Origin: Olleya sp. Hel_I_94
GTDB lineage: Bacteria; Bacteroidota; Bacteroidia; Flavobacteriales; Flavobacteriaceae
Direction: 5' to 3'
NCBI RefSeq assembly: GCF_007827365.1
Contig: NZ_VISI01000001.1
Coordinates: 498,501 to 562,500, forward strand
DNA length: 64,000 nt
Positions 2,017-49,515 of the stretch are shown piece after piece; the first letter of the stretch is position 1; every line of letters begins with the position of its first letter. The translations under genes and the position numbers were made by a program. The notes under the pieces were generated by a model that had not been told where the DNA came from, made no database searches, and worked only from the letters and a program-made list of their open reading frames with translations.

Positions 2017-3009
2017 TTAGTCTTTATCTAGTTTGTATTTTGAAAGATCCATTCCGAAATTTAATCCTTTAACATTTACTAGCTCTTCAAGCTCTGTTAA
2101 AGATTTCTTTCCAAAATTACGGAACTTCATTAAATCATTTTTATTAAAAGATACTAAGTCACCTAAAGTATCTACCTCTGCTGCTTTTAAACAATTTAGA
2201 GCACGAACAGAAAGGTCCATATCTACTAATTTAGTTTTAAGTAACTGTCTCATGTGAAGTGATTCTTCATCATAAGTTTCAGTTTGAGCAATCTCATCAG
2301 CTTCTAATGTAATACGCTCATCAGAGAATAACATGAAGTGGTGAATCAGAGTTTTTGCAGCTTCTGTTAATGCATCTTGAGGCGTAATAGAACCATCAGT
2401 CTGAATTTCGAAAACTAATTTTTCGTAATCCGTTTTTTGTTCTACACGATAATTCTCAATGCTGTACTTAACATTTTTAATTGGTGTGTAAATTGAATCA
2501 GTAAAAATAGTCCCTATTGGTGCTGAAGCTTTTTTGTTTTCTTCTGCAGGAACATATCCTCTACCTTTTTCAACAGTAATTTCCATGTTGATATTTACTT
2601 TAGAATCTAAGTTACAAATCACTTGATCTGTATTTAATACTTGGAAACCTGAAATAAATTTCTGGAAATCTCCTGCTACAATTTTGTCTTGACCAGAAAT
2701 TGAAATCGAAATAGATTCGTTATCAACATCCTCTATTTGACGCTTAAAACGAACTTGTTTAAGATTTAAAATAATTTCTGTTACATCTTCAACAACACCT
2801 GCTATTGTTGAAAATTCGTGGTCTACACTTTCTATTCTAACAGATGTGATAGCAAACCCTTCTAGAGAAGATAATAAAACTCTTCTTAAAGCATTTCCTA
2901 CTGTTAGTCCATAACCTGGTTCTAGAGGTCTGAATTCGAATTTACCTTCGAAGTCAGTTGAATCAATCATTATTACCTTATCAGGCTTTTGGAAATTAAA
3001 TACTGCCAT
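2017..3009 (-). CDS. rpoA: DNA-directed RNA polymerase subunit alpha
   Basis: 330 residues, the normal length. The N-terminal assembly domain (about 1-230) contains [19 protein letters not shown] at residues 32-50, the helix used for dimerisation and for docking beta and beta-prime. After a short acidic linker, the C-terminal domain (about 255-330) shows the helix-hairpin-helix region [20 protein letters not shown] and [12 protein letters not shown], which in other bacteria contacts UP elements and activators. It is placed between rpsD and rplQ, as in the classical alpha operon. Confidence 0.98.
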
Positions 3010-3106
3010 AATTTTTCTTCGTTTTAATTGTTATTTAGTTGCGCGGTTTATAAGTTTGAAGAGATACAAATAAACCCTTTGGCTAAACACCAATGTTAAT
3101 AATTTA

Positions 3107-3712
3107 TTATTTAGAGTATAATTCTACGATGAATTGCTCATTAATATTTTCTGGGATTTGGATTCTAGCAGGAACAGAAACGTAAGTACCTTCCTTTTTC
3201 TCGCTATTCCAAGTAATCCACTCATATACATTGCTAGAGTTTGATAAAGATCTATCAATAGACTCCAAAGATTTAGACTTCTCTCTTACAGCAACAACAT
3301 CTCCAGCATTAAGTTGGTATGAAGGTATGTTTACTAACTCTCCATTAACAGTAATATGTCTGTGAGATACAAGTTGTCTTGCTCCGCTTCTAGAAGGAGA
3401 TAATCCCATTCTAAACACTACATTATCTAATCTAGATTCACAAATTTGAAGTAATACTTCACCTGTGATTCCTTGAGCTGCAGTTGCTCTTTTAAACATG
3501 TTTCTGAATTGACGCTCTAAAATACCGTAAGTATATTTAGCTTTTTGCTTCTCCATTAATTGGATTGCGTACTCAGATTTTTTACCACGTCTTCTGTTGT
3601 TTCCATGTTGACCTGGTGGGTAATTTCTTTTCTCAAAAGACTTATCGTCTCCGAATATAGCTTCACCAAATTTACGAGCTATTTTAGTTTTAGGACCAGT
3701 ATATCTTGCCAT
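3107..3712 (-). CDS. rpsD: 30S ribosomal protein S4
   Basis: 201 residues. A basic N-terminal domain with [18 protein letters not shown] at 31-48 precedes the S4 RNA-binding domain (about 92-155, starting [14 protein letters not shown]). The N-terminal cysteine cluster of zinc-binding S4 proteins is absent, so this is a zinc-free form. S4 is a primary 16S rRNA binder, and in several bacteria it represses its own operon. Here it is the first gene after an internal terminator and a -7 box, with a leader of roughly 95 nt that could host such control (inference). Confidence 0.98.
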
Positions 3713-3812
3713 TTTTAAATTGATTTAAGAGTGATTATGAATTAAGGTCTAAATCTTATCCTTCGATAATCGTTAATCTCTTTGTTGATACTTGTTTTAA
3801 ATTTTCAGTTTG

Positions 3813-3820
3813 CAAATTTA
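3813..3820 (-). promoter_or_regulatory. Candidate promoter -7 box for rpsD-rpoA-rplQ
   Basis: On the minus strand it reads TAAATTTG, an exact match to the Bacteroidota -7 consensus TAnnTTTG. It lies just downstream of the rpsK terminator and 101 nt before the rpsD start. No convincing TTTG box is seen 19 nt upstream, so confidence is moderate. Confidence 0.5.
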
Positions 3821-3823
3821 TAC

Positions 3824-3866
3824 AAAAAATTAATACCATCTGATAAACAGACGATATTAATTTTTT
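3824..3866 (-). terminator. Rho-independent terminator between rpsK and rpsD
   Basis: A 19-bp inverted repeat (3824-3842 / 3848-3866, 5-nt loop) whose only two mismatches become G-U wobbles in the minus-strand RNA. It ends in six U. It divides the ribosomal cluster into rpsL-to-rpsK and rpsD-rpoA-rplQ segments. Confidence 0.8.
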
Positions 3867-3897
3867 TCTTGCTTAAGTAAAGTACTATGTAGTAAAC

Positions 3898-4290
3898 TTA
3901 TACTCTTCTTCTTTTAGGTGGACGACAACCATTATGTGGTAATGGAGTAACATCAATTATTTCTGTTACTTCAATTCCTGCATTATGAATAGATCGTATA
4001 GCAGATTCTCTACCATTTCCAGGTCCTTTAACATAAACCTTTACCTTTTTTAATCCAGCTTCTTTAGCTACTTCAGAAGCATCTTCTGCTGCTAATTGTG
4101 CTGCGTAAGGTGTGTTTTTCTTAGAACCTCTAAATCCCATCTTACCAGCAGATGACCATGAAATGACATCTCCCTTTTTATTTGTAAGTGAAATAATGAT
4201 ATTGTTGAAAGAAGCAGTAATGTGAGCTTCTCCAACAGCGTCAATAATAACTTTACGTTTTTTTGTGCTTTTAGCGTTTGTCTTTGCCAT
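3898..4290 (-). CDS. rpsK: 30S ribosomal protein S11
   Basis: 130 residues, full length. It has the S11 core, with [20 protein letters not shown] in its C-terminal half, and the characteristic tail [15 protein letters not shown]. Within this tail, N120-G121 corresponds to the Asn-Gly step that becomes iso-aspartate in E. coli S11. The protein sits on the platform of the small subunit. It lies 8 nt after rpsM and is the last gene before the internal terminator at 3824-3866. Confidence 0.98.
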
Positions 4291-4298
4291 ACTACTTA

Positions 4299-4673
4299 TT
4301 ATTTAGTTGCTTTTTTCTTGTTAGCAACTGTTTTTCTTCTTCCTTTTCTTGTTCTAGAGTTATTCTTAGTACGTTGACCTCTTAAAGGTAAACCAACTCT
4401 ATGACGAATTCCTCTGTAACAACCAATATCCATTAAACGTTTAATGTTTAATTGTGTTTCAGAACGTAATTCACCTTCAATAGTATAAGTACCTACAGTT
4501 TCACGGATTGCTCCAATTTGATCATCTGTCCAGTCTTGTACTTTGATGTTTTCGTCCACTTTAGCCTCAGCTAAAATTTCTTGAGCTCTACTTCTACCTA
4601 CTCCGTAGATATAAGTTAATGAGATCACTCCTCTTTTTTGTTTTGGTATGTCTACACCTGCGATTCTTGCCAT
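4299..4673 (-). CDS. rpsM: 30S ribosomal protein S13
   Basis: 124 residues. It opens [20 protein letters not shown], followed by the helix-two-turns-helix region [14 protein letters not shown]. The basic tail [18 protein letters not shown] reaches between tRNAs at the A and P sites. S13 lies in the head of the 30S subunit and bridges to the large subunit. It follows rpmJ by 2 nt and precedes rpsK by 8 nt. Confidence 0.98.
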
Positions 4674-4675
4674 AA

Positions 4676-4792
4676 TTACCCTTGTCTTTGTTTGAATCTA
4701 GGATTCTTTTTGTTAATGACGTAAAGTCTACCTTTTCTGCGCACAATCTTACAATCTGCACTTCTCTTTTTAATTGATGCTCTTACTTTCAT
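4676..4792 (-). CDS. rpmJ: 50S ribosomal protein L36
   Basis: 38 residues, beginning [20 protein letters not shown] and ending RFKQRQG, an unmistakable L36. Only one cysteine is present; the usual C-x2-C...C...H zinc ligands are missing, so this is the zinc-independent type. The gene is tightly packed: its ATG lies 4 nt after the infA stop and its stop is 2 nt before the rpsM start. Confidence 0.95.
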
Positions 4793-4796
4793 CGTA

Positions 4797-5012
4797 TTAG
4801 TATCTATAGGTTATACGAGCCTTAGTTAAATCATAAGGACTCATTTCTAATTTAACTTTATCTCCTGGTAACAACTTAATATAATGCATACGCATCTTAC
4901 CCGAAATATGTGCGGTCACAATATGACCATTTTCTAATTCAACACGGAACATAGCATTTGATAATGCTTCAATGATAGTTCCGTCTTGTTCTATTGCTGC
5001 TTGTTTTGCCAT
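4797..5012 (-). CDS. infA: Translation initiation factor IF-1
   Basis: 71 residues, the normal size, a single OB-fold S1-like domain. It has the family signature [28 protein letters not shown] in its middle (residues 24-51), written here only as a range with its key [13 protein letters not shown] core. IF-1 occupies the A site during initiation. The gene lies 10 nt after secY; the adk and map genes that often sit between secY and infA are absent. Confidence 0.98.
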
Positions 5013-42624: not shown

Positions 42625-42632
42625 TATATTTG
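42625..42632 (+). promoter_or_regulatory. Candidate -7 box for the M14 peptidase gene
   Basis: TATATTTG (exact TAnnTTTG) 27 nt before the ATG at 42660. It lies next to the divergent SulP promoter, so polymerase binding at the two may compete. Confidence 0.5.
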
Positions 42633-42659
42633 TGTAACCGTTATTTAAAATTACAATCA

Positions 42660-44390
42660 ATGAAAAAAATATTAGTCTTATTAATTTTAGTGGTTTCGTG
42701 TAAATCTACAACTAAAAAGGATTTTGATTTTGAAACTGTTTTTGAAAAATCTCAAGGATTAGAAACTGCCACTTACCAACAAACGATTCAGTATTACAAA
42801 GATTTAGCAACAGCTTATAATTCAATATCTATAGACTCTATTGGCAGTACGGATTCCGGAAAACCATTGCATTTAATCACATTAAATCCTGATGGAAATT
42901 TTGATTTTAAAACGATTAGAAACGATAAGCGTATTTTACTAATTAATAACGGAATACATCCAGGAGAATCTGATGGCATTGATGCCACTATGATACTATT
43001 TAGAGATATTGCTTCCGGTAAAATTGAAGCACCTAAACATACTGTATTAGTCACAATTCCTGTTTATAATGTTGGAGGTAGTTTAAATCGAAACACTTCT
43101 ACAAGAACAAACCAAAATGGCCCTAAAGCTTATGGGTTTAGAGGTAACGCTAGAAACTTTGATTTAAACAGAGATTTTATTAAAAGTGATACCAAAAATG
43201 CTAAGACTTTTGCTCAAATTTTTCACTTGGTAAAGCCTGATGTTTTTATAGACAATCACGTAAGTAATGGCGCAGATTACCAATATACTTTAACGCATTT
43301 ATTTACGCAACACAATAAGCTTGGTGGTACTTTAGGTAATTATTTACACACCAAAATGCAACCTAACTTAGAAGCTAAGTTAGCAACTAAACAATGGGAC
43401 ATTACGCCATATGTTAACGTATTTAATAAAGTGCCAGAAGCTGGATTTAGTCAATTTATGGATAGTCCAAGATATTCTACGGGTTACACTACTTTGTTTA
43501 ACACCTTAGGTATGATGGTTGAAACACACATGCTTAAACCATACAAACAACGTGTAGAAGGCACCTTTGAGTTAATGAAATCCATGATTGAAATTATAGA
43601 AGAAGACCATGAACAAATTAAATCTTTACGTCAAAACTACAACCAACAACTTATTGCAAAAAAGACTTACCCATTGCAATGGGAAATAGATACCACACAA
43701 ACCACATCCTTAAATTTTAAAGGTTTTGAAGGTAACATGATACCTAGCAACATTACAGATGCAGACCGTTTAAAATTTGACAGAAGCAAGCCTTTTACAA
43801 AGCAAATTACCTACCAAAATTATTTTAAGCCTAGTTTAGAAATCAACATACCACAAGCCTATATCATTCCTCAAGGTTGGTGGAATGTAATTGAACTTTT
43901 AAAATTGAATGATGTTAACATGACACCTTTAAGTAAAGATTCTACAATAACGGTACAGTCCTATAAAATTGACAACTACCAAACAAGGTCTCAAGCTTAT
44001 GAAGGACATTACCAGCATTTTAATACAAGTATAAAAGTTTCGGAAGACGCCATTACATTTAATAAAGGCGATTATATTATTAAAACTAATCAAGAGGCTT
44101 TTAGATACCTAATTGAAACTTTAGAACCGCAAGCTCCTGATTCATTTTTTAACTGGAATTTTTTCGATACAATACTGCAACAAAAGGAAGGATTCTCGCC
44201 TTATGTTTGGGAAGATAAAGCCGAATTAATTTTAAGACAAGACCCAAAATTAAGAATCAATTTTAACCTTAAAAAATCTTACGACAAAGACTTTGCCTCA
44301 AATTGGTATGCTCAGCTTGACTGGATTCATAAACAGAGTGTTAATTACGAAAAATCACATTTACAATACCCTGTTTATAGACTAAAATAA
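42660..44390 (+). CDS. M14-family zinc carboxypeptidase-like lipoprotein
   Basis: 576 residues from ATG 42660; an in-frame start 10 codons earlier would destroy the lipoprotein signal. The lipobox LVVSC (Cys14) places it on a membrane surface outside the cytoplasm. The zinc site is visible as H-P-G-E in NNGIHPGESDG and the later His in DNHVSNGADY, with the probable catalytic Glu in MMVETHML. Neighbouring M14 blocks include GGSLNRNTSTRTNQNGP and RNFDLNRDFIK. It probably trims peptides in the periplasm or at the surface. It is followed after 79 nt by the GNAT-nitrilase gene. Confidence 0.85.
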   Translation: MKKILVLLILVVSCKSTTKKDFDFETVFEKSQGLETATYQQTIQYYKDLATAYNSISIDSIGSTDSGKPLHLITLNPDGNFDFKTIRNDKRILLINNGIHPGESDGIDATMILFRDIASGKIEAPKHTVLVTIPVYNVGGSLNRNTSTRTNQNGPKAYGFRGNARNFDLNRDFIKSDTKNAKTFAQIFHLVKPDVFIDNHVSNGADYQYTLTHLFTQHNKLGGTLGNYLHTKMQPNLEAKLATKQWDITPYVNVFNKVPEAGFSQFMDSPRYSTGYTTLFNTLGMMVETHMLKPYKQRVEGTFELMKSMIEIIEEDHEQIKSLRQNYNQQLIAKKTYPLQWEIDTTQTTSLNFKGFEGNMIPSNITDADRLKFDRSKPFTKQITYQNYFKPSLEINIPQAYIIPQGWWNVIELLKLNDVNMTPLSKDSTITVQSYKIDNYQTRSQAYEGHYQHFNTSIKVSEDAITFNKGDYIIKTNQEAFRYLIETLEPQAPDSFFNWNFFDTILQQKEGFSPYVWEDKAELILRQDPKLRINFNLKKSYDKDFASNWYAQLDWIHKQSVNYEKSHLQYPVYRLK

Positions 44391-44469: not shown

Positions 44470-45996
44470 ATGAATCCACAAGACATTGAAAATATAGAAT
44501 TAGCATATCTAACTTTAGATGATTATCAAGAGTTAAAAGAAGCAATGCAAGAAGCATATAAATCTATGCCTAATCTATATTGGAGAGAAAATCAAATTAA
44601 AACTTTAATTGACAAGTTTCCGGAAGGACAAGTTGTTATTAAAATTAACAATCAAATCGCTGGTTGTGCTTTGTCTATAATAGTTGATTATGACAGGATT
44701 GAAGCAGAGCATACCTACGAGGATATTACTGGTAACTATACTTTTAATACACACACAAAATCTGGTGATGTATTATATGGTATTGATGTATTTATTAAAC
44801 CTAAATTTAGAGGTTTACGCTTAGGTAGACGTTTATATGATTACAGAAAAGAGTTATGTGAAAAACTTAACTTAAGAGGTATTGTTTTTGGCGGTCGTAT
44901 TCCTAATTTTCATAATTACCAAAACGAAATGACACCTAAGGAGTACATGGATAAGGTAAAAAGAAAAGAAATTCATGACTCAGTTTTAAATTTTCAAATC
45001 TCAAACGACTTTCACCCATTAAGAGTTTTGAAAGGCTATTTAGAAGGTGACAAAGATTCTGGCGAGTTTGCTGTACTATTAGAATGGGATAATATTTATT
45101 ATCAAAAACCATCTAAAAAAGCTGCTACCAAGAAAAAAGTGGTACGATTAGGTCTTATACAATGGCAAATGCGCTTGTATAAAGATTTAGAAGAATTAAT
45201 GCAACAAGCAGAATACTTTGTTGACGCAGTATCTGGATATAGATCTGACTTTGCATTATTTCCAGAGTTTTTTAATGCGCCTTTAATGGCAGATAATAAC
45301 CATTTGCCAGAGTCTGAAGCAATTAGAGAACTAGCAAAACACACAGAAGAAATCGTTCAGAAATTTTCAGAATTAGCCATATCATACAACATCAACATCA
45401 TTACAGGAAGTTTTCCAGAAATGAAAGGGGATTTACTATACAACGTAGGCTATTTATGTAGACGTGATGGTACTTTGGAGCGTTATGAAAAACTTCATGT
45501 CACTCCTGACGAAGCTAAAGTTTGGGGAATGCAAGGTGGTACTAAATTAGAGGCTTTTGATACCGACTGTGGTAAAATAGGAATTTTGATATGTTACGAT
45601 TCTGAGTTTCCAGAGTTAAGTAGACTTTTAGCAGACGAAGGTATGGACATCCTATTTGTTCCGTTTTTAACAGACACACAAAATGGATACTCTAGAGTAC
45701 GCAATTGTGCACAAGCAAGAGCGATTGAAAACGAATGCTATGTAGCTATCGCAGGAAGCGTAGGTAATTTACCTAAAGTGCATAACATGGACATCCAATA
45801 TGCGCAATCCATGGTATTTACACCATGTGATTTTGCCTTTCCAGCAAATGGAATAAAAGCAGAAGCAACAACCAACACAGAGATGATATTAATCGCAGAT
45901 GTTGACATAGATTTACTACGCGAACTTAACCAGTTTGGTAGCGTTAGAAACCTAAGAGACAGACGTAAAGACATCTTTAGCTTAACTAAAAAATAA
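44470..45996 (+). CDS. GNAT acetyltransferase-nitrilase fusion protein
   Basis: 508 residues in two domains. Residues about 8-215 are a GNAT acyltransferase with the acyl-CoA loop KFRGLRLGRRLYD at 112-124 and GIVFGGRIPNFHNY after it. Residues about 224-505 are a carbon-nitrogen hydrolase with the full catalytic triad: Glu266 (FPEFF), Lys341 (YEKLHV) and Cys375 (ICYDSEFPE). The nitrilase part hydrolyses amides or transfers acyl groups. The fusion is known in several bacterial phyla but its substrate is unknown to me. It lies 107 nt upstream of the ATP-grasp/GCS2/amidohydrolase operon, same strand, with a hairpin between, so a shared pathway is plausible, not shown. Confidence 0.9.
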   Translation: MNPQDIENIELAYLTLDDYQELKEAMQEAYKSMPNLYWRENQIKTLIDKFPEGQVVIKINNQIAGCALSIIVDYDRIEAEHTYEDITGNYTFNTHTKSGDVLYGIDVFIKPKFRGLRLGRRLYDYRKELCEKLNLRGIVFGGRIPNFHNYQNEMTPKEYMDKVKRKEIHDSVLNFQISNDFHPLRVLKGYLEGDKDSGEFAVLLEWDNIYYQKPSKKAATKKKVVRLGLIQWQMRLYKDLEELMQQAEYFVDAVSGYRSDFALFPEFFNAPLMADNNHLPESEAIRELAKHTEEIVQKFSELAISYNINIITGSFPEMKGDLLYNVGYLCRRDGTLERYEKLHVTPDEAKVWGMQGGTKLEAFDTDCGKIGILICYDSEFPELSRLLADEGMDILFVPFLTDTQNGYSRVRNCAQARAIENECYVAIAGSVGNLPKVHNMDIQYAQSMVFTPCDFAFPANGIKAEATTNTEMILIADVDIDLLRELNQFGSVRNLRDRRKDIFSLTKK

Positions 45997-46023
45997 GCCA
46001 AAATTATTTATTAAAAATTTAAC

Positions 46024-46056
46024 TAAACTGGTTTTACATTTTGTAAAACCAGTTTA
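46024..46056 (+). other. Perfect 14-bp inverted repeat after the GNAT-nitrilase gene
   Basis: Arms 46024-46037 and 46043-46056 with a 5-nt loop (ATTTT). The plus-strand RNA has A-rich, not U-rich, sequence after the stem, so it is a stem-loop of uncertain effect: processing site, weak terminator, or a barrier between this gene and the next operon. Confidence 0.7.
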
Positions 46057-46103
46057 AAAATAATATAACTTTACATAAATTAATATCGCGATCTTCGCAT
46101 AAA

Positions 46104-47549
46104 ATGAACAAATACATTGTTGTCAATCAACCAGAAAAATGGCATTTTTCGATTGAGAATATTACGGTAATTTCATCGCAAGATTATCTTACCAATCCTA
46201 AATTTTCGCTTTTAAAAAAAGCAAGAATATTTAATCTTTGCAAAGATTATAGTTACCAATCCAAAGGTTACTACGTCTCGCTTTTAGCCGAAGCTAGAGG
46301 TCATTTAGCCATTCCAACAGTAAGAAACATTGTAGATTTAAAAACACTTAAACTAGTCAAAATAGTTTCCGACGAGTTTGACGATGTTATACAACAAAGC
46401 CTAAAAAGCATTAAGTCTAGAGAGTTTACTTTAAGTATATACTTTGGTCAAAATGTGGCACAAAAATATAAAGAGCTAAGTAGTTTGTTTTACAAACATT
46501 TTCAAGTTCCTTTTTTACGCGTAAAGTTTCATCATAATAATAAATGGAACATACAAAGTATTAAAGCTATTTCAGAATCAGAAATTCCTTTAGACCATCT
46601 AGAAAGTGTTAACCTATTTGCTAATCAGTATTTTGCAAAAAAACGTTATGATACTCCAAAATTGACTACCTCAGATTTTGACTTAGCCATTTTGGTAAAC
46701 CCAAACGATCCTGCTCCTCCTAGCAATACAAAAGCTTTAAAAAAGTTTATAGACATTGCTGAAAAGATGAATATTTATGCTGAAATTATAGAGCCTAAAG
46801 ATTTAAGTCGTTTGTCCTCTTTTGACGCTTTATTTATAAGACAAAGTACAGAGGTTAATAATGAAGCCTATGCATTTGCGCGTAAAGCACAGCAAGAAGG
46901 TATCGCTATTATTGATTACCCAGAAGCAATTTTAAAATGTTGCAACAAAGTGTACATGGCAGAAGCGTTAAACAATGCTCATATTGCGACTCCAAAAACA
47001 GTAATTGTCCACAAGGAAAACAGAGCCTTAGTATTAGAACAAGTTGGTTTACCTTGTGTATTAAAAGCACCAGATAGCACGTTCTCATTTGGAGTAAAAA
47101 AGGCTAAAACAGCTAAAGAATATGACACCTTGGTAACAGATATGCTAAAAGAGTCCGATTTAATTATTGCACAAGAGTTTTGTCCTTCAGATTATGATTG
47201 GCGCATTGGCATTATCGACGATGTCCCATTTTATGCTTGTAAATATTATATGGCTAAAGGACATTGGCAAATCTATAACTGGAATGCTGACAAAAAAAAT
47301 GATCAAGATGGTGACGCTGATTGCCTGCCTATAGAAGACGTCCCAAAGGATGTAATTACTATGGCAATAAAATCTGCAAAACTAATGGGTAAAGGCTTGT
47401 ATGGTATTGATATAAAAGTGGTCAATAACAAACCAATGGTTATTGAAATAAATGACAATCCAAATATAGACTATGGCGTGGAGGATGCCTATTATGGCGA
47501 TTTAGTTTACACTAAAATACTACAGGCTTTAAAAACTAGATTAGAATAA
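46104..47549 (+). CDS. RimK-like ATP-grasp ligase
   Basis: 481 residues. The N-terminal region (about 20-160, with ARIFNLCKDYSYQSKGYYVS and LLAEARGHLAIPTVRNI) matches the RimK-like ATP-grasp N-terminal domain. The C-terminal ATP-grasp domain (about 275-480) shows GLPCVLKAPDSTFSFGVKKA, AQEFCPSDYDWRIGIID and the Mg2+ site VIEINDNPNID (Glu448, Asn450/452). Enzymes of this type make an amide bond between a carboxylate (via acyl phosphate) and an amine, often adding glutamate or a related amino acid to a peptide or protein. It is followed after 2 nt by the GCS2-type gene, so the two are translationally linked. Confidence 0.88.
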   Translation: MNKYIVVNQPEKWHFSIENITVISSQDYLTNPKFSLLKKARIFNLCKDYSYQSKGYYVSLLAEARGHLAIPTVRNIVDLKTLKLVKIVSDEFDDVIQQSLKSIKSREFTLSIYFGQNVAQKYKELSSLFYKHFQVPFLRVKFHHNNKWNIQSIKAISESEIPLDHLESVNLFANQYFAKKRYDTPKLTTSDFDLAILVNPNDPAPPSNTKALKKFIDIAEKMNIYAEIIEPKDLSRLSSFDALFIRQSTEVNNEAYAFARKAQQEGIAIIDYPEAILKCCNKVYMAEALNNAHIATPKTVIVHKENRALVLEQVGLPCVLKAPDSTFSFGVKKAKTAKEYDTLVTDMLKESDLIIAQEFCPSDYDWRIGIIDDVPFYACKYYMAKGHWQIYNWNADKKNDQDGDADCLPIEDVPKDVITMAIKSAKLMGKGLYGIDIKVVNNKPMVIEINDNPNIDYGVEDAYYGDLVYTKILQALKTRLE

Positions 47550-47551
47550 TT

Positions 47552-48784
47552 ATGTCTAAAAAATATCACTTATTTGAAGTTTACGGAATAGAGCTAGAAT
47601 ATATGTTAGTAAACACTAACAGCTTTAAAGTTGCTCCTATTGTGGATGTATTACTTACTAAAAAAAATGGTAAAATAACTTCTGATATCGAAAACGGATC
47701 TATCGCATGGAGCAATGAATTGGTTGGACATGTTGTTGAAATTAAAACGAATGGACCAACTAATGATTTAAATAATCTTGCAGAAGCATTTCATCAAAAC
47801 ATCATAGAAATAAATGGTTTATTAAAACCTTTAAATACAAAACTACTACCTACAGCGTCTCATCCTACAATGAATCCTTTAAAGGATACACAACTATGGA
47901 AACACAGTTATAGTGAAGTTTACGAGTTGTACAACAGGATTTTTGATTGTAAAGGTCATGGTTGGAGTAATGTGCAAAGTACACACATTAACTTACCCTT
48001 TTATGATGATAAAGAGTTTGAAAAACTACATGCAGCCATCAGGATAATTTTACCACTAATCCCTGGTTTATGTGCAAGTTCGCCAATTTTAGATGGTAAA
48101 ATTACAGGATTTAAAGACACTAGATTAGAATATTATAAAACCAATCAAAAAGAAATTCCAGAAATGACTGGATTGGTTATACCAGAGCGTGTTTTTACAA
48201 AAGCGGATTACTACGCTACCATTTTTGAACCCATAAAACAAGTCATTAAAAAGTATGACACAAATAATATTTTAGATCATCATTTTTTAAATAGTCGTGG
48301 TGCAATTGCAAGGTTTGATCGAAATGCTATAGAAATTAGACTAGTCGACATTCAAGAGTGTCCAAAAGCTGACATTGCTATTTGCGCATTAATAATTGAA
48401 GTCTTAAAGCTTTTAGCTAATGAAGATACAACAAGTCTTAAAAAGCAAAAAAAATGGTTAAAGCAGGATTTGTTTTCTATTTTAAACGCAGTAATTAAAG
48501 ATGGCGAAGCATATAATATCTCTAACTTAGACTACCTTGAGTTATTTGGAATAAAGCAAGCCTCTAATGTTAAAAACGTGTGGCAACAACTATATATATT
48601 AGTAAAAGATCATATTTCTAAGGACTACCAAAACGCATTAGAAGTCATTTTTAATCATGGTACGCTTTCAACCAGAATTGTTAACGCGTTGAATCATGAT
48701 GTTTCGGTTAAAAACATTGAATTGGTTTATAAACAATTAGCAACATGTTTGGAGGAAAACAAAATGTTTATTCCTATAAGTTAA
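47552..48784 (+). CDS. GCS2-type carboxylate-amine ligase
   Basis: 410 residues, the glutamate-cysteine ligase 2 fold (glutamine-synthetase-like). Family blocks: YGIELEYMLVN at the start, NELVGHVVEIKTNGP, then THINLPF, and FLNSRGAIARFDRNAIEIRL in the ATP/Mg region. Members join an amino acid to a carboxylate, as YbdK does for glutamate and cysteine. No second step enzyme of glutathione synthesis is linked, so a metabolite other than glutathione is likely (inference). It lies 2 nt after the ATP-grasp gene and 1 nt before the amidohydrolase gene. Confidence 0.87.
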   Translation: MSKKYHLFEVYGIELEYMLVNTNSFKVAPIVDVLLTKKNGKITSDIENGSIAWSNELVGHVVEIKTNGPTNDLNNLAEAFHQNIIEINGLLKPLNTKLLPTASHPTMNPLKDTQLWKHSYSEVYELYNRIFDCKGHGWSNVQSTHINLPFYDDKEFEKLHAAIRIILPLIPGLCASSPILDGKITGFKDTRLEYYKTNQKEIPEMTGLVIPERVFTKADYYATIFEPIKQVIKKYDTNNILDHHFLNSRGAIARFDRNAIEIRLVDIQECPKADIAICALIIEVLKLLANEDTTSLKKQKKWLKQDLFSILNAVIKDGEAYNISNLDYLELFGIKQASNVKNVWQQLYILVKDHISKDYQNALEVIFNHGTLSTRIVNALNHDVSVKNIELVYKQLATCLEENKMFIPIS

Positions 48785-48785
48785 A

Positions 48786-49460
48786 ATGAAATTAGTCATT
48801 ACTTGTGAACATGGTGGCAATGCTATTCCTTTAGAATATAAACCCTATTTTTTAGATACTTTAGTTTTAGAAACACACAAAGGTTATGACTTAGGTGCAT
48901 TGGATGTATTTAATTATTTAAAGCCTATTGCTGATTATTCAAATTTTAGTACTACAAGTCGTTTATTAATAGAATTAAATAGGTCTACTAATAATAAAAA
49001 TTTATTTTCAGCATACACAAAAACACTGACAACAAAACAAAAACAAAGCCTAATTAACACGTATTATAATGACTACAGGCAAGCTGTAACAAAGTATATA
49101 GCATCAATCATAAACAACAATTTAAGTGTCATACATCTGTCTATTCATTCTTTTACACCTGTTTTAAACAATGCTATAAGAGACTGTGACATTGGTCTTT
49201 TATACGACTCTAGAAGGATTCAAGAAAAGCAATATGCAATGTCATTCAAAAAAAATATTTTAGCTTTAAATCCGGAGTATCGTGTCAGATTTAATTATCC
49301 CTATTTAGGAAAAGCCGATGGCTTTACAACTGCATTAAGACAACAATTTAAAAACAATTATATAGGCATTGAGGTAGAAATAAATCAGTCTTTTGCTGTA
49401 AATAATAAAATGCCAGAAAAGCTAAAACATGTTTTAAAGCAAAGCATTATTAATTTTTAA
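48786..49460 (+). CDS. N-formylglutamate amidohydrolase-like enzyme
   Basis: 224 residues. Family signatures: VITCEHGGNAIP near residues 4-15 (metal-binding His/Glu), LIELNRSTNN near 62-71 and LSIHSFTPVL near 119-128. Such enzymes cleave the amide of N-formylglutamate in histidine breakdown, but here no hut genes are present. Next to two amide-forming ligases it more likely cleaves or edits the ligase product or removes a blocking group (inference). It is the last gene of the operon, ended by the terminator at 49465-49497. Confidence 0.85.
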   Translation: MKLVITCEHGGNAIPLEYKPYFLDTLVLETHKGYDLGALDVFNYLKPIADYSNFSTTSRLLIELNRSTNNKNLFSAYTKTLTTKQKQSLINTYYNDYRQAVTKYIASIINNNLSVIHLSIHSFTPVLNNAIRDCDIGLLYDSRRIQEKQYAMSFKKNILALNPEYRVRFNYPYLGKADGFTTALRQQFKNNYIGIEVEINQSFAVNNKMPEKLKHVLKQSIINF

Positions 49461-49464
49461 ACAT

Positions 49465-49497
49465 AAAAAAACCGTTACAATTTGTAACGGTTTTTTT
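49465..49497. terminator. Bidirectional terminator between the ligase operon and the repeat-protein gene
   Basis: A 16-bp inverted repeat (49465-49480 / 49482-49497) with core CCGTTACAA and its complement, flanked by A7 and T7; serves both converging genes. Confidence 0.92.
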
Positions 49498-49515
49498 ATT
49501 ATTTAATGTAATTGG

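Follow-up and report, generated by a model that had tools for sequence, protein, structure and literature searches.

Introduction

What do two amide-forming ligases and one amide hydrolase make together, when their genes follow one another almost without intervening nucleotides? The question is raised by a locus of the flavobacterium Olleya sp. Hel_I_94, located in a stretch of 64,000 nucleotides (NCBI RefSeq assembly GCF_007827365.1, contig NZ_VISI01000001.1, positions 498,501 to 562,500; hereafter the window) of a 3.56 Mb genome assembled in two contigs, C1 and C2, the locus being on C1. Three genes are found there on the + strand (46104-49460): the first (46104-47549) encodes a 481-residue protein with an RLAN domain and a RimK-type ATP-grasp ligase domain (PF14401 and PF08443; hereafter the RLAN ligase), the second (47552-48784) a 410-residue carboxylate-amine ligase of the GCS2 family (PF04107) and the third (48786-49460) a 224-residue amide hydrolase of the FGase family (PF05013), which is N-formylglutamate amidohydrolase-like. 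Only 2 nt separate the first two genes, and 1 nt the last two.

A previous reading of this locus, made from the letters alone (the sequence-only reading), had proposed a pathway in which an amino acid is joined to a carrier or peptide and later trimmed, with an acyltransferase and an amidase supplied by a GNAT-nitrilase gene located 107 nt upstream. The coordinates, strands and intergenic distances that it gave (the 107 nt included) agree with ours, its key motifs (VIEINDNPNID, GIELEY and VITCEHGGN) are present as described, and its family calls for the three proteins all score above the Pfam cut-offs, the GNAT-nitrilase likewise matching both of its families.

Gene neighbourhoods of RLAN were reportedly predicted by Iyer et al. 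in 2009, and both RLAN (PF14401) and DUF3335 (PF11814) are already named as families in Pfam. A review which refers to that study describes fusions of DUF3335 to GNAT domains as frequent (PMC10318531). Our search of the literature on these families, with a coverage outside which most subscription journals lie, found no paper describing the three-gene set or its product, and passages of two articles (PMC4431377 and PMC3597751) contain nothing on the combination of RLAN, GCS2 and FGase.

Family assignment and conserved residues

All three proteins belong to the families named above: the RLAN domain scores 163.4 bits (Pfam cut-off 25), the ATP-grasp domain downstream of it 34.5 bits (cut-off 21), the GCS2 protein 89.4 bits (cut-off 21) and the FGase 64.0 bits (cut-off 28.9), with the conserved His/Glu positions present in the latter. 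Across 33 aligned RLAN ligases (the window's included) 75 columns are invariant, D436 among them, and E448, N450 and N452 of the VIEINDNPNID motif are kept in every sequence. The 29 aligned GCS2 proteins (again with the window's) all keep G12, E14, E16 and Y17 of GIELEY, together with W53-S54-N55-E56, H60, E63, N140, H145, N147, R254 and R263, and the 20 aligned FGase proteins, the window's being one of them, share C7-E8-H9, R59, E63, N65, R66, H117 and H121.

At the level of the NCBIfam models, each ligase falls short of the cut-off in all of its matches, and for the FGase there is no match at all. With the model of RimK, the S6 glutamate ligase (NF007764), the RLAN ligase obtains 31.5 where 331 is required, and with that of LysX of the amino-group carrier system 58.6 where 275.6 is required (TIGR02144; no search for a LysW-type carrier was made). 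For glutathione synthesis, the scores are 18.3 against 272 (glutathione synthase) and 40.4 against 249 (cyanobacterial gshA), and for the YbdK-type carboxylate-amine ligases (TIGR02050) the GCS2 protein reaches 52.9 against 176.4. Among the solved structures in the PDB, the best matches of the ATP-grasp part are RimK- and LysX-type ligases; the GCS2 protein finds no GCS relative there as a single sequence, and with its profile nothing beyond non-significant hits (plant GCS and 1tt4) appears. The structure nearest to the FGase is 2odf (profile E 3.9e-30), which is titled only as a hypothetical protein (Atu2144) and so gives no clue to the substrate. Close relatives were found for both ligases: the RLAN protein is 99% identical to its O. 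marilimosa counterpart, and the GCS2 protein 98% identical to that of Olleya sp. UBA1516 among the matches listed. The two homologue searches, which covered the best 120 of 7250 and the best 120 of 7996 matches, served for names and Pfam domains only.

The Olleya genome also carries a true RimK (374 bits, cut-off 331), which is its sole PF02955 match. On contig C2 (positions 2522-4942 of the fetched record L151), this rimK gene is directly followed by a gene for an AstE/aspartoacylase-type hydrolase and a 5-FTHF cyclo-ligase gene; rimK and the AstE/aspartoacylase-type gene are a second ligase-hydrolase pair in this genome.

Conservation of the three-gene unit

The three genes are a true, inherited unit, found together beyond chance. 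This was seen in a sample of 199 genomes of the family (the Olleya genome included) and in a collection of 80 loci, chosen as the best among 210 confirmed relatives; full 10 kb flanks are available for 64 of these 80 loci. RLAN exceeds its cut-off in 27 of the 199 genomes, a GCS2 homologue is present in 25 (24 strong matches, plus genome G292 at 18.4 bits) and FGase in 23, all of them among the carriers of RLAN and GCS2. By coordinates, every strong GCS2 match (24/24) and every FGase match (23/23) adjoins RLAN. The RLAN genomes without GCS2 are two in which RLAN is fused to a GNAT domain (G293 and G353, see below) and one with a fragment (G211, 84% completeness), and in one incomplete genome (G359, 77% complete) the FGase alone is missing from the trio. 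In the locus collection, GCS2 is present in 80/80 loci (truncated where the locus ends in L039, and split into two frames in L066) and FGase in 77/80, the exceptions being L039, which ends inside GCS2, L101, which ends right after it, and L104, from Brumimicrobium. The claim of the sequence-only reading that this neighbourhood is conserved is therefore borne out in co-occurrence and in order across the family, and the genes, far from being seldom adjacent in relatives, occur as a trio in those 77 loci.

The spacing between open reading frames is -40 to +10 nt in 77 of 84 complete cassettes for RLAN-GCS2 and in 78 of 84 for GCS2-FGase. Additionally, the pairwise protein distances of the three members are correlated (r of 0.88, 0.69 and 0.72 over 77 loci, with 0 of 999 permutations as high), values which shared ancestry alone could also produce. 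One locus in which both ligases are frame-broken (L130) was excluded from alignments A4 and A5, from the tree and from the spacing and distance analysis; L134 was excluded from the alignments and the tree, and L116, where the FGase frame is cut short, from the spacing and distance analysis.

In the metagenome-assembled genome (MAG) of an Algicola (L066:11449-12616), the GCS2 frame between RLAN and FGase is in two pieces, corresponding to residues 1-121 and 189-408 of the Olleya GCS2 protein; either the gene is broken or the assembly is at fault.

Exchange of partners

Outside the family, the RLAN ligase is accompanied by different partners. In a sample of 198 genomes of the phylum, 22 genomes besides the Olleya one have long RLAN-ligase matches, and all 22 loci were fetched (L113-L134): 15 contain GCS2 (frame-broken in L130), six encode a GNAT domain fused to RLAN and one (L134) has a split form. 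A papain-like enzyme of the C39 type is encoded directly upstream of the cassette in all 15 of these RLAN+GCS2 genomes outside the family (311-396 bits), with C15, H172 and D190 invariant in the 13 sequences aligned; as a profile, it best matches the peptidase domains of ComA-type transporters. Eight of these 15 genomes also have FGase, and the other seven lack it genome-wide.

Within the family, the C39 enzyme is absent from the cassette loci (0/80), and a search of the Olleya genome gave no match. Across the 199 family genomes there are matches in 23, reaching at most 28.9 bits, and 19 of the 23 lie in frames of 728-751 amino acids which look like peptidase-transporters; among the 24 RLAN+GCS2 genomes the only match is in G324 (22 bits, 735 amino acid frame). 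Family carriers of RLAN+GCS2 thus have no C39 cassette gene and nearly always FGase. Eighteen genomes were searched for an FGase located elsewhere: the 17 FGase-less ones gave none, and the remaining one, G031, served as the positive control. Every wholly examined RLAN+GCS2 genome has C39, FGase or both, with the exception of the incomplete G359.

The GNAT domain is fused to RLAN in eight genomes (the six phylum-sample loci, G293 and G353), above the Pfam GNAT cut-off in all eight. No GCS2 is found in the fetched locus of the former six, nor genome-wide in G293 and G353; FGase was not found genome-wide in any of the eight, and none has a strong C39 match (G353 gives 26 bits in a 736 amino acid frame). 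Related arrangements are seen in L134 (genome G155), where RLAN occurs in split parts together with a GNAT-DUF3335 fusion, and in an Azospirillum record, where a GNAT-DUF3335 gene meets the RLAN start. In a midpoint-rooted tree of 46 RLAN rows (the first 140 residues of the GNAT fusions being trimmed), five of the six GNAT rows form one clade (support 100/100) which branches among Bacteroidota rows with GCS2. The GNAT form may have arisen once, as far as this tree can tell; the fork above the clade has 92/93, short of full support, and family f22 contains both the GNAT and the GCS2 types. Near the GNAT-RLAN gene of three of these loci (L121, L124 and L127) lie an inositol-monophosphatase-like gene and, downstream, a gene resembling BshB1 (bacillithiol deacetylase), as judged by eye.

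We count these exchanges (GCS2 or GNAT; C39 or FGase) as observations, on a par with the genes, their families, motifs and linkage. Compared with the RLAN neighbourhoods that combine GNAT and a papain-like peptidase, the window has the same RLAN and ATP-grasp ligase, but GCS2 in the place of GNAT and FGase in that of the papain-like enzyme; it does not belong to that system, having no C39, and a GNAT domain nearby only in an unlinked nitrilase fusion.

Distant carriers

Brumimicrobium glaciale (genome G387; L104, 10001-12666) keeps RLAN and GCS2, and its RLAN clusters with those of Winogradskyella and of a MAG that bears the label Lacinutrix (a group of three rows; support 100/94), which suggests transfer between families; the case looks like horizontal transfer plus loss of the hydrolase. 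Further away, a 9 kb record of Legionella adelaidensis labelled as a plasmid (NZ_LR134436.1; L147:41-3232) has RLAN, GCS2 and FGase in the same order as overlapping genes, with the RLAN apparently cut by the record start and a DUF4332 gene after the trio. A plasmid record of Pseudomonas aeruginosa (L148:3899-5488) encodes an RLAN ligase that is possibly a stand-alone form: no GCS2, FGase, GNAT or C39 gene is annotated within 4 kb, in a gene table that may be incomplete.

Flanking regions

The GNAT-nitrilase gene (44470-45996, + strand; CN_hydrolase 131.6 bits, GNAT 27.8 bits) has a homologue within 10 kb of the cassette in 14/80 loci, and at most 350 nt upstream of it in 11/80. A full-length GNAT-nitrilase is present in 91 of the 199 family genomes, and at most 500 bp from the cassette in three of the 27 RLAN genomes (the Olleya genome, G233 and G382). 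Between this gene and the cassette, a promoter-like element in its relaxed form, TAACTTTA (46066-46073, + strand), starts 38 nt before the RLAN start. The strict form of this promoter-like consensus, TAnnTT(T/C)G, starts 38-44 nt before the RLAN start codon in 51/79 loci and the relaxed form in 69/79, with means of 0.6 and 2.6 in mononucleotide shuffles, an excess that is partly due to ancestry, since the loci are related. A hairpin of 16 pairs (46023-46057; -17.9 kcal/mol for the surrounding 50 nt) also lies between the two genes, and is terminator-like on the - strand only. Directly 3' of the FGase gene there is a hairpin of 17 pairs with a T tail (49463-49499, + strand), which resembles an intrinsic terminator.

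Further upstream (42630-44390), a lipoprotein-like protein of 586 amino acids has no Pfam match but carries the M14-like carboxypeptidase motifs HPGE and NRD. A homologue is found in the fetched locus in 39/80 cases, and the gene was set aside as local synteny rather than as part of the cassette.

Discussion

We propose, with a probability of about 0.45, that the three genes are a self-contained cassette by which a small capped glutamyl peptide is both built and broken down. The catalysis, glutamate as the substrate, the order of the steps and the product are what we infer. The GCS2 enzyme would activate the gamma-carboxylate of glutamate (or of a close relative) and link it to an amine, which would thereby receive a gamma-glutamyl cap; the RLAN ligase would next couple the free carboxylate with an amino acid, and the FGase would hydrolyse an amide beside a glutamyl residue, so that the product could be trimmed or recycled. 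In other Bacteroidota the papain-like C39 enzyme may act as the hydrolase, alone or with FGase, and in the sister lineage the GNAT domain fused to RLAN may replace GCS2 as the capping enzyme. The RLAN and ATP-grasp protein would then be the constant amide ligase, GCS2 or GNAT the exchangeable acyl capper (gamma-glutamyl or acetyl) and C39 or FGase the exchangeable hydrolase. Of the pathway put forward in the sequence-only reading, the conserved amide-making and trimming set is retained, and the role given to the GNAT-nitrilase is not.

Two known systems have the nearest logic. In the NAGGN operon (AsnO, Ngg and a peptidase), Ngg both acetylates a glutamine and attaches another glutamine, the peptidase being encoded in the operon and the product being an osmoprotectant (PMC8070244). 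The likeness lies in the serial N-capping and ligation of small amino acids with an operon peptidase, and it parallels the GNAT-RLAN fusion; the difference is that the window ligase does not match the NAGGN synthetase model, TIGR03103, and that the cassette genes come without an asparagine synthase. RimB takes off the glutamates added by RimK (PMC11957791), so that an ATP-grasp ligase is again paired with a hydrolase undoing its product (PMC11957791 and PMC12239564); the window ligase differs by its low score for the RimK model, by the presence of a separate true RimK in the genome and by a hydrolase of another family. Because these two logics are the nearest, a free capped glutamyl peptide is favoured over a protein tag and over a thiol. 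Most genera in the 80 loci are marine, a habitat in which a stress solute would be plausible.

Several observations weigh against this proposal. We found neither an activity nor a metabolite nor a structure attached to any protein of the trio. The FGase changes fastest (median distance of 0.44, compared with 0.16 for RLAN), and the Algicola locus has RLAN and FGase but a split GCS2 frame. Brumimicrobium keeps RLAN and GCS2, but its genome gives no FGase match and its locus contains no C39, and the hydrolase may therefore be dispensable. Finally, the GNAT-nitrilase is enriched in the genomes with RLAN (23/27, compared with 68/172 of those without it), and in G382 it flanks the cassette at the opposite end, after the FGase.

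The last two points also bear on the four-gene operon that the sequence-only reading had proposed, for which the common strand and the distance of 107 nt speak as well. Nevertheless, linkage within 10 kb in so few loci, the wide spread of the GNAT-nitrilase in genomes without the cassette and a promoter-like element before RLAN in most loci, although the upstream gene varies, led us to discard it as a fixed fourth member; the hairpin between both genes points the same way, though it is terminator-like on the - strand only. That this gene supplies the pathway with an acyltransferase and an amidase is accordingly not upheld, and the four-gene operon is very unlikely. We regard the GNAT-nitrilase as a neighbour, for which its enrichment leaves a loose functional link possible. 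A serious, if doubtful, competitor is a writer and eraser of protein modifications, in which RLAN and GCS2 would ligate amino acids to a protein or peptide terminus and FGase or C39 would remove them. The PDB matches of the ATP-grasp part, the precedent of RimK and RimB on ribosomal protein S6 (PMC12239564 and PMC11957791) and the hydrolase gene directly after the true rimK of the Olleya genome are in its favour. No conserved target gene is seen beside the cassette, in a listing that omitted frames under 100 amino acids without a window match, and alternative GNAT and GCS2 partners better suit a capped free peptide.

A glutathione-like thiol, with GCS2 making gamma-glutamylcysteine and the RLAN ligase as the second synthetase, would reproduce the cyanobacterial glutathione layout of a GCS2 ligase and an ATP-grasp ligase. 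No other glutathione synthetase match is found in the genome, where the only PF02955 match is RimK; this is consistent with the earlier statement that the second glutathione gene is missing (proteobacterial-type GshA was not searched). Canonical glutathione synthesis by both ligases was rejected on equivalog scores far under the cut-offs, and the replacement of GCS2 by GNAT in the sister systems and a patchy spread (27/199 genomes), which is odd for a main thiol, make even a related thiol improbable. The sequence-only reading had also held that the usual roles do not fit, in part because histidine-degradation genes are absent. This absence holds for the window only, since HutH (TIGR01225, 595.5 against a cut-off of 539) and the three-domain urocanase HutU are encoded elsewhere in the genome (C2:398827 and C2:2890853); what stands is that the curated glutathione models are missed, and the argument from histidine genes is wrong genome-wide. 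With HutH and HutU present a last-step enzyme is needed, and the FGase could be that HutG, placed beside the ligases incidentally (no search for another such enzyme was made). However, the hut genes are on the other contig, and the FGase, which matches no NCBIfam model, has homologues restricted to RLAN+GCS2 genomes (23/199); because it tracks RLAN and GCS2 it is unlike HutG, and we rejected this assignment as hardly credible.

Conclusions

The proposed capped glutamyl peptide cassette of Olleya is a variant of the already known, uncharacterised RLAN neighbourhoods, and what is new here is the C39 enzyme upstream in the RLAN+GCS2 genomes outside the family, an enzyme which the family carriers lack, nearly all of them having FGase. 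As a tentative generalisation, RLAN would be the core of small-peptide systems with a swappable capper and a swappable hydrolase, the flavobacterial form possibly making a so far undescribed peptide with a gamma-glutamyl cap, which might serve as a stress solute and the level of which would be set by built-in synthesis and hydrolysis. Given the pattern of exchanges (GCS2 or GNAT; C39 or FGase), a vague "peptide pathway" becomes a model that can be tested, resting on a small three-gene unit that can be cloned. If the proposal is true, the ligase cassettes of many Bacteroidota, and of at least one gammaproteobacterial record, would make a metabolite for which our literature search found no description.

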